From an uncultured Bacteroidota bacterium (GTDB lineage: Bacteria > Bacteroidota > Bacteroidia > AKYH767-A > OLB10), in NCBI GenBank assembly GCA_903847585.1, contig CAINEC010000131.1:1-37497 (forward strand): 37,497 nt of DNA. The letters run 5' to 3'. The position numbers were made by a program, and so were the translations under genes. Numbering within the stretch: position 1 is the first letter of the stretch; every line of letters starts with the position of its first letter. The notes below the pieces were generated by a model. The model saw only the letters and a program-made list of their open reading frames with translations, ran no database searches and had not been told where the DNA came from. This document shows, piece after piece, positions 13,842 to 17,023 of this stretch.

Positions 13842-14552
13842 TCATCTGCTTTTAGTCCTAAAAAGCCTGCCTTTGTAAACTGTATTCCAAAATTCAAATT
13901 TGTTGTTGGGTATTATCTCTTCTAAACTACTAATTTCAATAATGTTGGATTCAAAATATCCTACTAAATATTCTTCAAGATCGAATAGTGTTAAATAATG
14001 CAGATCCCCTCTTAAAAGAGGAGGGGGCAGGGGGTGGTCAAAATGCTTTTTAATTTCAGAAATAACATAATCAAGCGCATCAAATACCAATTGGTTTTCA
14101 AATCTCACTACATTTATTCCGTAGCTATTTAAAAAGTGAGTTCTTATAGCATCATTTTCTTCTGTATCAGGAGTAGAATGGACTTCTCCATCTAATTCAA
14201 TAGCTAATTTCTCTGAAGGGCAATAAAAATCTAAAATGAAATTTCCAATACTATGTTGTCGTCTGATTTTTTTACCACTAACCTGTGATTTTTTTAAATA
14301 ATTCCACAGGTAGGCTTCTGCACATGTAGAATTATTACGCAGCTTCCTTCGGAAAGCTTTTAAATATTGTCGATTGTTTATTGTCACTAAACCACCCCGT
14401 CCTTCGGACACCCCTCCAAAAATCGGATGGGAACTTTTTTGTGGAATGAAAGTTAAATTTAACTTACTTGCAATGCTTAAAATCTCATCATGATTTAAGG
14501 ATTGGATTAATTTGTTAATTCTACTATTGATAGAAAAATAATTTTGTGTCAT
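13842..14552 (-). CDS. DUF559 (Vsr/PD-(D/E)xK-like) endonuclease-domain protein with internal repeats
   Basis: This 236-residue protein contains a DUF559 core: FRRKLRNNSTCAEAYLW, KIRRQHSIGNFILDFYCP, LAIELDGEVHSTPD and GINVVRFENQLVF (about 68-165). The DFYC…IELDG…H residues match the Vsr-like nuclease fold used by this family. Outside the core the gene is odd. Two GC-rich tracts of a type common as interspersed sequence in Bacteroidota are read in frame: 14003-14040 (encoding HPLPPPLLRGD) and 14391-14417 (encoding GGVSEGRGGLV). The C-terminal about 50 residues and N-terminal about 55 residues are not part of the known core. A TATTTTTG box precedes it at 14576-14569 (minus). Function is unproven; nuclease activity is inferred. 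Confidence 0.8.
   Translation of the reverse strand: MTQNYFSINSRINKLIQSLNHDEILSIASKLNLTFIPQKSSHPIFGGVSEGRGGLVTINNRQYLKAFRRKLRNNSTCAEAYLWNYLKKSQVSGKKIRRQHSIGNFILDFYCPSEKLAIELDGEVHSTPDTEENDAIRTHFLNSYGINVVRFENQLVFDALDYVISEIKKHFDHPLPPPLLRGDLHYLTLFDLEEYLVGYFESNIIEISSLEEIIPNNKFEFWNTVYKGRLFRTKSR
14003..14040. repeat. GC-rich interspersed repeat inside the DUF559 gene
   Basis: The tract begins GATCCCCTCTTAAAAGAGG (a CCTCTT/AAGAGG hairpin) and continues AGGGGGCAGGGGGTGGTC. It stands out sharply from the AT-rich surroundings and is read in frame as a Pro-rich peptide. Tracts of this type recur in Bacteroidota and cyanobacterial genomes; only this copy and the related one at 14391 are seen here. Confidence 0.5.
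14391..14417. repeat. Second GC-rich repeat tract inside the DUF559 gene
   Basis: ACCACCCCGTCCTTCGGACA followed by CCCCTCC contains a small hairpin GTCC-TTC-GGAC (14399-14409). It is read in frame near the N-terminus (GGVSEGRGGLV). Its composition and style match the tract at 14003-14040, in reverse orientation. Confidence 0.45.
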
Positions 14553-14624: not shown

Positions 14625-15260
14625 TCACTTCAAACGATAAACACTTAAACGCTTATCATTAATTAATAATCCAGGATTAATTCCAAGTTTGCCTTCAGGG
14701 ACATCCATCTGAAAATACTTTTGATAGTAATTAATCCAGCCAGGGAATAATTCATGTGTTTCCGGATCTTTAAATGTCATGGGTTGCATCTTGAAAAAAT
14801 CCTTTTGATGATTTACTTCTTTGAAAACATAATAAATTAATTCAGCACAGTAAATCTGATTGCTATCAGGTAAATACTTTTCATCGTATTTAATGCCACG
14901 GTAATTTTTAACAAGTTCTGATGCATTGTTTACTTCAGATTTATATTTTCTATCTAATCGACCAACGTAAATCGTTTCTTTTGATCGATTAATAAAAGCT
15001 GAAATTGATACGGTATCGGCGACATTATCATATGCTTCCATCACAACTAACTTTCCATTGTATGACGTAAGCATTCCTACATGCGAAAAGTAGTGTCCGT
15101 TGTAGTGAGGAGTAACCTTCTTAATTGCATTCGATAAATCACCACCACCTAAATCTTCAAATAAAAAATCGCCAGCTTTAAGTTCTTGTAAACCGATTTG
15201 CTCTTGAGCAAAGGATATTTGAAATAAAAAACTGGCGATTATAAATAATTTATAACGCAT
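14625..15260 (-). CDS. YiiX-like permuted papain-fold (NlpC/P60-type) hydrolase, exported
   Basis: The 211-residue protein has a signal peptide ending FQISFAQ. The circularly permuted NlpC/P60 (YaeF/YiiX, C92) motifs follow in order: LKAGDFLFEDLGGGDL (about 27-42), the His motif YFSHVGMLTSY (about 57-67), VVMEAYDNVADTVS, and the Cys motif IYCAELIYYVF (about 136-146). His and Cys are both present, so hydrolase activity on amide bonds (peptide or lipid-linked substrates) is likely; the substrate is unknown. It begins one base before the SppA stop ends (TAATG overlap), so it is translationally coupled to sppA. Confidence 0.85.
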   Translation of the reverse strand: MRYKLFIIASFLFQISFAQEQIGLQELKAGDFLFEDLGGGDLSNAIKKVTPHYNGHYFSHVGMLTSYNGKLVVMEAYDNVADTVSISAFINRSKETIYVGRLDRKYKSEVNNASELVKNYRGIKYDEKYLPDSNQIYCAELIYYVFKEVNHQKDFFKMQPMTFKDPETHELFPGWINYYQKYFQMDVPEGKLGINPGLLINDKRLSVYRLK

Positions 15261-17023
15261 TAAAACGATAGGTTGTAAAATGTTCTTGCTTGAACGCCTT
15301 GTTTATTTTTGATTGATTGAAGTTCTTTCAGGATATAATACTGATCACCTAATGTAGTTTGGAAATACCAAACCTTCGCTTCTTCTGAAATGCCACTCAT
15401 CAATTCTTCAAATGGCTCTTTTTGTTCAGGCATTGATTTAATTCTATATTCCTTGATTTTTGCTAAGTCAGCTGCAATTCGTATTGCATCATTGATATTT
15501 CCAATTTCATCAACCAGTCCAATGCGTTTCGCATCTACACCCGACCATACGCGTCCTTGACCGATACTATCCACATCAGCTTGCTTCATTTTTCTTCCTT
15601 CTGCAACGCGAGATGTAAACGTATTATAAACCTGATCAACGCTACGTTGAATAATTAGTCGCTCGCTTTCAGTCATTGGTCGACTCATTGTTCCGATATC
15701 ACCGTAGGTATTTGTTTTATAAGTATCGAATGTGATTCCTAGTTTATTCTTAAACATATTTTGTGCATTGAACATTAATCCAAATACACCAATCGACCCC
15801 GTTAATGTTGTTGGTTCTGCAACGATTTTATTAGCAGCGCAAGAGATATAATATCCACCAGATGCAGCTAAGTCGCCCATTGATACAACAACAGGTTTTA
15901 CTTTCTTGGCTAATATTACTTCTCTCCAGATAACATCTGAAGCTAATGCATCACCACCAGGAGAATTTACTCTTAATACAATCGCTTTTATTTTATCATC
16001 CTTACGAGCATCAGCAATTGTTTTTGCTAATGTTTCAGATCCAATTTTTTCATCGTCGCCTTCGCCACCTGAAATTTCTCCATTTGCATAAATAACAGCA
16101 ATCTTATCTGAAGCAGTCGATGTGGCAATCGCTGCATTTTTATACTTATTCAAAGTGATAAATTCAGGAGCTTCGCCTTTTTTCTTTCCTGCTACCACGC
16201 TTAAGTCATCCATGAACTCATCATAGTAAGCAAGCTTGTCAACTAGTTTATTGTCCAATGCGTCTTTTGCTTCATTAATCTTTAAGCTATCAGCCATTAA
16301 ATTAATTGCATCTGGAGTAATCTTTCTTGAAGATGCAACATTAGTAACAATATGATTCCAGATTGGATTAATAAATCCTGCAATCTGTGCACGATTTTCT
16401 TCACTCATGTTCTCACGGATGTAAGGCTCTACAGCACTCTTAAATTTACCGTGACGGATAATCTGTGGTTCAATTTCTAATTTATCTAAGGTGCCTTTTA
16501 AAAACATGATTTCAGTCGAAAGTCCTGTAAGTGCAAGACTACCTTGTGGATTCAGATAAATTTTATCAGCTACACTGGCAAGGTAATAAGCTCCTTGCGT
16601 ATAGTTTTCTGCGTAAGCGTAAATAAATTTTCTTGACTTTTTGAAATCGATGAGGGCATTACGAATTTCTTCCATCGTAGCCATACCCATTGAAACCGAA
16701 GGAACATCAAGGTAAATTCCTTTGATGTGCTCATCAGTTTTAGCAAACTTTATTTCTTGTAAAATATCATTTAAGCCTGGCTGTCCTTTTTTACTACTGA
16801 AGCTTGCAATGTCAAAATTTTCAAACGGATTTTTTGATGTGCGCTCGGTAACTTTTTCAGATAGTTGAATATGTAATACAGAGCCATCTTTAACGGTTAC
16901 TTCTTTGCTATCTCCAGAAGAAACAATTGCAGCAATTAATGCAATGAATAAAAAGAAGCCAACTATCGAAGCCAATAAGACTCCAAGCATTGCGGCTAAG
17001 ACAGATTTTAAGAATGATTTCAT
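15260..17023 (-). CDS. sppA: Signal peptide peptidase SppA, 67 kDa type
   Basis: This 587-residue membrane-anchored serine protease degrades cleaved signal peptides in the periplasm. The N-terminal membrane helix spans about 11-35. Two tandem S49 domains follow, the tandem (E. coli-like) form. The catalytic Lys sits in HGKFKSAVEP (Lys195) and the nucleophile in GDLAASGGYY (Ser388). LRVNSPGGDALASD, TGSIGVFGLMFN and GRVWSGVDAKRIGLVDEIG complete the second domain. All key residues are present. A TATATTTG box on the minus strand (17049-17042) with TTG at 17067-17065 lies 18 bases before the start. It is co-transcribed with the YiiX-like gene. Confidence 0.95.
   Translation of the reverse strand: MKSFLKSVLAAMLGVLLASIVGFFLFIALIAAIVSSGDSKEVTVKDGSVLHIQLSEKVTERTSKNPFENFDIASFSSKKGQPGLNDILQEIKFAKTDEHIKGIYLDVPSVSMGMATMEEIRNALIDFKKSRKFIYAYAENYTQGAYYLASVADKIYLNPQGSLALTGLSTEIMFLKGTLDKLEIEPQIIRHGKFKSAVEPYIRENMSEENRAQIAGFINPIWNHIVTNVASSRKITPDAINLMADSLKINEAKDALDNKLVDKLAYYDEFMDDLSVVAGKKKGEAPEFITLNKYKNAAIATSTASDKIAVIYANGEISGGEGDDEKIGSETLAKTIADARKDDKIKAIVLRVNSPGGDALASDVIWREVILAKKVKPVVVSMGDLAASGGYYISCAANKIVAEPTTLTGSIGVFGLMFNAQNMFKNKLGITFDTYKTNTYGDIGTMSRPMTESERLIIQRSVDQVYNTFTSRVAEGRKMKQADVDSIGQGRVWSGVDAKRIGLVDEIGNINDAIRIAADLAKIKEYRIKSMPEQKEPFEELMSGISEEAKVWYFQTTLGDQYYILKELQSIKNKQGVQARTFYNLSF

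Follow-up and report, generated by a model that had tools for sequence, protein, structure and literature searches.

A DUF559 nuclease gene between inverted GC-rich palindromes: a candidate REPtron-like element in an uncultured Bacteroidota bacterium

The window, meaning the whole stretch of 37,497 nucleotides analyzed here, contains a small DUF559 gene (13,842–14,552, minus strand) that we read as a cassette of a nuclease-and-palindrome element, decayed in part and probably of foreign origin, with a probability of about 60%. The element is best described as REPtron-like and built on a PD-(D/E)XK nuclease, its movement being suggested by patterns of occurrence and by analogy with REPtrons. The association of DUF559 loci with GC-rich tracts, their common architecture, and the matching of tract to nuclease are well supported. 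In-frame insertions into host genes are found together with uninterrupted alleles of such hosts, and the catalytic residues of the nuclease are intact. From this, we infer that DUF559 cuts at or near its tract and that the cutting drives copying.

The open reading frame (ORF) encodes 236 amino acids and matches PF04480 over residues 64 to 170 with an E-value of 6.4e-29, scoring 100.5 bits in the Pfam scan against a curated cut-off of 20.6. DUF559 and MTES_1575 are the only families called in it; neither a Y1 (HUH) tyrosine transposase nor a Hint splicing family is among them. Its parts follow one another in the order N-terminal part with a putative 23-residue host scrap, tract 2, nuclease, tract 1, and C-terminal part. 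The nuclease core (14,043–14,363, minus strand) contains the DFYC, ELDG..H, and RRQH residues and, with them, the nuclease residues (D of DFxC, E and D of ExDG, and H). The same residues are found in every one of 41 in-frame cores and in 99 or 100 of the other 100, the window included, in a set gathered by profile, which favors conserved residues. The closest solved structure to the window core by sequence is 3hrl, an endonuclease-like protein (E 3.2e-16). Within its own genome of 2.99 Mb, the window gene is the sole DUF559 match. The upstream neighbors on the same strand (14,625–17,023) are a C92 amidase-like gene and an S49 peptidase gene.

Tract 1 (about 14,004–14,039, minus strand) directs its head GACCACCCCCTGCCC toward the core and its hairpin CCTCTT/AAGAGG outward, and it is translated as DHPLPPPLLRGD in frame with the nuclease. 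Tract 2 (14,392–14,432, plus strand) consists of the tract proper, 14,392–14,417, whose head CCACCCCGTCCTTCGGACA also points toward the core, and a decayed outward hairpin (CCCCTCC/GGATGGG, by eye) that extends to about 14,432; its minus-strand translation SHPIFGGVSEGRGG is in frame as well. Judged by eye, both tracts show a head (ACCACCCC...) followed by a hairpin and are mutually inverted, heads inward and hairpins outward, like those of their relatives. The strict hairpin rule described below picks up tract 1 only, because the hairpin of tract 2 has decayed. An idealized tract 1 hairpin matches the window twice (0.22 expected; 3 of 100 shuffles reach two), both matches being registers of the one palindrome in tract 1. 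By eye, GTAG is present in neither tract, and the CGTC that tract 2 contains is not conserved in relatives. Heads of mini-hairpins like tract 2 occur in other genomes. When the ATG start is used, the palindrome is read in frame. Translation may instead start at an internal GTG (14,385–14,387, minus strand), inside tract 2 and about where the nearest relatives begin, in which case tract 1 alone would be translated.

With up to three mismatches allowed, no solo tract copies were found in the 2.99 Mb of the window's own genome. Tract 2 finds no copy besides itself, and the hairpin of tract 1 finds itself and one three-mismatch match, which is at the level of the reversed control with its two matches. 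A strict pattern for the tract family has no match in this genome either, and is uninformative there since it misses the window's own two tracts too. An earlier note had described the gene as having absorbed genomic repeats in frame. The tracts are real and in frame, but the genome-wide count found each of them once, so that their being repeats of this genome was not confirmed. Tracts confined to this one gene had been named as an outcome that would count against the idea; such confinement holds in the own genome but not elsewhere, where the family is multicopy beside DUF559 genes. Because the window core belongs to a clade of mixed phyla in which 7 of 13 members share a common head, it is more likely that the nuclease brought its tracts along than that they stem from the surrounding genome.

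This clade of 13 cores comprises rows from Calditrichota, Nitrospirota (L184), CPR, one from Melainabacteria, and six from the Bacteroidota sample. The nearest core to that of the window is L176 from Calditrichota with 62% identity, at a fork whose support of 99/53 is weak on one measure. The window-type head ACCACCCC, which was chosen after reading the flanks of clade members and corresponds to the head of tract 1 common among them, lies near 7/13 window-clade cores versus 2/128 others, and the commoner head CCTCACCCC near 0/13 versus 56/128. These counts bear on the simplest alternative, namely that the gene is a small DUF559 gene of the ordinary kind, with GC-rich sequence beside it by chance. 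The single occurrence of each tract in the own genome and the failure of tract 2 under the strict rule would agree with it. It is nevertheless very improbable, given that both tracts show, by eye, a head-hairpin form in the common orientation, with a head of the type seen in clade members from other phyla, and that a related cassette in another genome (G192) is preceded by a matching 23-residue flank.

The related cassette in G192 (L365) lies in frame within a 954-residue stretch of a Type ISP enzyme (PF18135, E 3.8e-91) and has matches on both sides to the same tract family as that of the window. The 23 residues SLNHDEILSIASKLNLTFIPQKS of the window ORF (14,433–14,501, minus strand) are 48% identical to the segment upstream of the Type ISP cassette; the two segments, each preceding its cassette or tract 2, align with a score of 59 against a shuffled mean of 19, which 0 of 2000 shuffles reached. 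The parts of the window ORF outside the tracts stay open more than shuffled sequence does: only 31 of 5000 shuffles stay open for the C-terminal part of 53 codons after tract 1 (13,845–14,003, minus strand), and 290 of 5000 for the N-terminal part. Compared with the same Type ISP host, the C-terminal part gave no significant match (local, 116/2000 shuffles; semiglobal, 669/2000), and the joined 93-residue host part has neither an uninterrupted homolog in 119 other genomes nor a Pfam match over cut-off. Type ISP genes occur in 3 of 31 genomes overall and 0 times in the window's own; hence, this assembly does not contain the former host. On our reading, the window gene is a relic, that is, a cassette carrying a scrap of an earlier restriction-modification host. 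The neighboring C92 gene is present in 5/6 congeners. One of these loci (L098) was considered as a syntenic empty site and rejected since the locus differs, the protein encoded beyond the C92 neighbor carrying what we take to be a Fic motif; it offers no clean empty allele.

The strict rule demands a GC-rich, strand-asymmetric hairpin. It was set after reading the first loci, and the 80 cross-phylum loci and both comparators were scored later with the rule unchanged. The Bacteroidota loci, 40 standalone and 20 long-ORF copies with regions of up to 16 kb each, form the top of the E-value list among the matches listed; three copies lying at contig ends were passed over, and contig ends also truncate some of the regions. 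The cross-phylum set holds the best 80 of at least 579 DUF559 loci from genome contigs of many phyla, and the comparators, 30 GIY-YIG and 30 Y1_Tnp loci, are top-scoring too. At 400 bp or less from the core, a strict hairpin is present in 34/40 standalone, 18/20 long-ORF, and 70/80 cross-phylum loci (best 80 of at least 579), as against 0/30 GIY-YIG and 1/30 Y1_Tnp loci. Pooled, these are 122/140 DUF559 loci versus 1/60 comparators, which bears out in several phyla the association that had been proposed for Bacteroidota. Around standalone cores, the density is about 4 hairpins per kb within 200 bp and 0.03 to 0.09 per kb beyond 500 bp; around long-ORF cores, it falls from 8.0 per kb within 100 bp to 0.03 to 0.35 per kb beyond 500 bp; and in the cross-phylum set (best 80 of at least 579) from 6.8 per kb within 100 bp to 0.08 to 0.09 per kb at 0.5 to 6 kb, with hairpins on both sides in 44 of the 80 loci. 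Generic hairpins are denser near than far from GIY-YIG and Y1_Tnp genes also, so that only the GC-rich asymmetric tract type is special to DUF559.

Two side observations belong to these loci. Six DUF559 loci (L020, L024, L058, L061, L064, and L071) are near contig ends, as would be expected if flanking repeats break assemblies. Among the GIY-YIG loci (L255–L284), the 9-mers ACTGCGCTC and CGCAGTCGA are found near 4/30 and in 0/30 far flanks; translated by hand, this repeat would give TERSRS, a peptide also seen in two inserts of a leucyl-tRNA synthetase (LeuRS) loop (L228 and L231).

At the level of whole genomes, DUF559 matches 170 of 296 Bacteroidota genomes, and strongly (E below 1e-15) 126 of them. 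A generic tract pattern occurs three times or more in 64/126 strong-DUF559 genomes versus 25/170 others (odds ratio 6.0, p 2.5e-11; stratified by family, odds ratio 7.5, p 2e-5), and has no match in 37 of the 126; its control averages 0.33 in DUF559 genomes and 0.90 in genomes without DUF559. The strict pattern of the window tract family, just outside which the window's own tracts fall, matches 32/296 genomes, with a maximum of 34 forward and 36 reverse matches in one genome (G011) and 0 for the reversed control among the matches listed. Strong DUF559 matches are present in 28/32 genomes with the window-family tract versus 98/264 others (odds ratio 11.9, p 4e-8). Seven window-family tract places lie within 400 bp of DUF559 among the matches listed, where roughly 0.13 would be expected by an estimate based on the tract places among those matches.

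The usual layout at DUF559 loci is hairpin, head, nuclease, head, hairpin. Of the upstream tracts nearest to a gene, 75 point their head toward it and 37 away from it, and the corresponding downstream counts are 61 and 37 (Fisher p 2.9e-5 for head orientation by side), nine upstream and five downstream tracts with an undecided head or the G-rich arm first being omitted. Within a locus, upstream and downstream tracts have a mean similarity of 0.61 (93 loci) versus 0.32 between loci; the pairs match better inverted in 48 loci and direct in 44, with one tie, a near equality due to hairpins matching themselves when reversed. Among the loci that have a tract (131 of 141), tract similarity rises with that of the nucleases (Mantel rho 0.304, p 0.001), the shuffle ignoring relatedness. 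Tract similarity is 0.30 between divergent cores of the same genome (8 pairs) and 0.57 between similar cores of different genomes (108 pairs); tract sequences thus go more with the nuclease than with the genome.

The main rival to nuclease-driven spread is homing. In this reading, something else would have spread the tracts as an older repeat family, and DUF559 would be a homing endonuclease that cleaves tracts standing alone, enters them through gene conversion, and so comes to lie between tract copies. Homing enzymes related to Vsr are known. The rival would also suit the paired tract units around some nucleases (L051 and L072), the clustering of same-site cassettes (MetH and HsdR) by host on the tree, owing to which spread at one site may be vertical, and the Vsr-relatedness of YcjD-like proteins as given in the available part of PMC1189080. 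However, in the eight same-genome pairs the tract type differs between divergent DUF559 copies, so that the tract is not simply a resident repeat, and the window's genome has no detected solo tracts to home into. We regard homing as unlikely. In favor of the nuclease-and-palindrome element, the tree, which is built from few columns, requires a minimum of 19 changes of the in-frame label over 41 rows (L365 excluded), and its well-supported branches force at least seven.

Cassettes in frame inside host genes are recurrent. Hosts recognized over curated profile cut-offs are LeuRS (L077, L079, and L094), MetH (L082 and L093), IcmF (L090), HsdR (L080 and L081), ValRS (L114, cut by the contig), PriA (L121), HydF (L136), and Type ISP enzymes (L127, L130, L140, and L365); by domains, L116 and L117 are also MetH. 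Below the whole-protein cut-offs but with a clear E-value are RecB/AddA-like helicases (L089 and L091), HsdM (L085), and PglX-like or other methylases (L076, L078, and L084). Pfam further gives DNA methylase domains in L115, L120, L139, L142, and L145, an HsdS domain in L129, RimM in L132, and a Mur ligase in L151. Five hosts were assigned by eye (L083, L086, L087, L088, and L092) and two by likeness to scanned rows (L075 and L159), and four in-frame rows (L118, L119, L134, and L152) are counted without a host name. No Hint family was found in 19 hosts by Pfam scan, 15 further hosts having been scanned with NCBIfam only. A chance reading of the tracts in long ORFs was considered and is ruled out where families match both sides of the cassette, as in LeuRS, MetH, IcmF, ValRS, PriA, HydF, and the Type ISP enzyme of L365. 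It may apply to L129, L130, L132, L151, and L152, where the core is near the ORF start; L129, L130, L132, and L151 could be front fusions. Among 51 tract copies, three pass the ORF test, two of them being those of the L365 cassette, and the other 48 are not deep in a long ORF. In two HsdR hosts (L081 and L083), a second tract-like peptide (KSSPTGRGQGEG and KSSPNGRG) lies tens of residues upstream without DUF559, perhaps as a tract-only in-frame insertion.

LeuRS provides a series of alleles. A query spanning the insertion site matches 146/149 genomes of one family, in one piece in 120 and in two pieces in 26. All 30 one-piece proteins that were read have a stretch of 35 to 39 residues between the motifs flanking the loop. 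Among 25 of the 26 split proteins (G461 left out), DUF559, intact or decayed, is present at one loop in 13, namely as ten cassettes with the catalytic motif, two DUF559-like domains without it, and one broken stretch with DUF559 remains; the other 12 have a longer loop only, several of which look like other repeat-derived peptides. In G103, both pieces belong to one ORF of 1142 residues with no second LeuRS among the matches listed, which suggests that this genome has no LeuRS copy but the occupied one. Mapped onto the LeuRS of Thermus thermophilus (1h3n), the insertion point is between residues 236 and 243. Empty and occupied alleles, which the earlier note had advised comparing, are seen for LeuRS at the protein level, and the window locus gave no clean empty allele; the note's broader suggestion that nuclease and repeats are linked gains from tract types that track the nuclease and from the recurrence of in-frame insertion in host genes. 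The loop itself, at the start of the editing domain (L225–L248), holds DUF559 cassettes as well as unrelated repeat-like peptides (such as VIASETKQS and VQHDxSERHSELVSES) and seems to be a landing site for several of these. In L244 and L245, the DUF559-like domain has lost the ExDG motif while the reading frame is open, possibly through decay or domestication.

The in-frame cassettes also bear on a passive or regulatory role, by which the hairpins would control a potentially harmful nuclease gene as terminators or translation blocks, and solo copies would be spread by another enzyme. The core often has a tract no more than 100 to 200 bp away, on one side or on both, and roles of REPs in termination and mRNA stability are proposed in the available part of PMC3733652, both in keeping with such control. 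It leaves unexplained the in-frame tract-nuclease-tract units in LeuRS, ValRS, MetH, and PriA, as well as the genome-level link of tract number with DUF559, and we consider it improbable.

In Escherichia coli K-12, ycjD is a DUF559 gene with tract-like hairpins on the 3′ side only (by eye). A ycjD query matches 3365/5426 E. coli genomes, and the E. coli tract occurs in 5375 genomes, at a median of 15 places in each. In three ycjD-less strains, a TetR gene and an efflux gene start beside fabI, and in one strain read through to sapF, an efflux operon lies in between. The ycjD locus was accordingly rejected as an empty site, its alternative allele being a replacement by the efflux operon. A solo tract at phnP-yjdP was rejected too, since its seven aligned alleles vary mainly by internal deletions, and the tract site at tusA-zntA gave no clean empty site either; none with a target duplication was found among the E. 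coli sites examined. In strain ETEC6 (NZ_CP041627.1), an IS1-like element with two DUF559 pieces occupies the place of ycjD. Among 15 pattern matches in viral contigs there is no relative, and among two phage and 39 plasmid records none covers 80% of the query.

The element proposed here would be a unit of hairpin and head, DUF559 nuclease gene, and head and hairpin. As related nucleases have related tracts, the nuclease is predicted to recognize its own tract, and the solo tracts of many genomes are presumed to be nonautonomous copies. It would land between genes or in frame inside them; in the latter case, the GC-rich tracts would be read as short linkers and the nuclease would become an extra domain. 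The window copy would then be a small ORF that keeps the scrap of an earlier restriction-modification host. More tentatively, and at somewhat less than even odds, these loci represent a widespread class of selfish elements in which a PD-(D/E)XK nuclease, in place of a transposase, and its clade-specific tracts spread as cassettes and solo tracts, with readable tracts as linkers that allow residence in frame even in essential genes such as that of leucyl-tRNA synthetase, in an intein-like manner without splicing. Other small nucleases, such as GIY-YIG, may likewise own further repeat families. For interspersed palindromes that lack an assigned spreading enzyme, DUF559 is a concrete candidate with matching tracts in several phyla, testable in the laboratory through its relative ycjD in E. 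coli K-12. It would also explain the DUF559 domains inside LeuRS, MetH, PriA, and restriction enzymes.

Inteins and homing endonuclease genes place a nuclease in frame in conserved, often essential proteins. The DUF559 cassettes resemble them in this respect; they differ in that the 19 Pfam-scanned hosts contain no Hint family, there is no sign that the insert is removed, and many host genes and sites are used. The same DUF559 domain is found in the Vsr-like proteins E. coli YcjD and Caulobacter VsrA. In the available part of PMC12907096, the DUF559 protein is treated as a repair-type enzyme and a repeat partner is not mentioned; deletion of VsrA is described there to abolish the SOS response in cells without cytosine methylase, which fits an active nuclease. 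In the literature search, no title or abstract opening was found that links DUF559 to interspersed repeats. Rickettsia palindromic elements and intragenic REPs, as far as the available descriptions go, are palindromes inserted without a frame shift into genes whose protein products probably still work, and the palindromes read in frame in LeuRS, MetH, HsdR, and other hosts are alike; here, however, a nuclease gene is inserted along with the repeats, giving a host protein with an extra nuclease domain. REPtrons are described in the available part of PMC3733652 as REP palindromes with RAYT tyrosine transposases, together with intragenic REPs and a CGTC superfamily apparently without a dedicated transposase. 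Compared with that account, the enzyme here is a DUF559 PD-(D/E)XK nuclease instead of an HUH/Y1 transposase, and the heads seen are C-rich (CCTCACCCC and ACCACCCC), with no GTAG tag noted by eye in the window's two tracts. Solo palindromes, a further REPtron trait, were not found in the window's own genome with up to three mismatches allowed, the tract family being multicopy in other genomes. Shared with REPtrons, to the extent they are covered there, are a single gene between palindromes that are often inverted, related solo copies elsewhere, and repeats that sometimes lie inside genes; the window gene itself sits between inverted palindromes, with the hairpin of tract 2 decayed.
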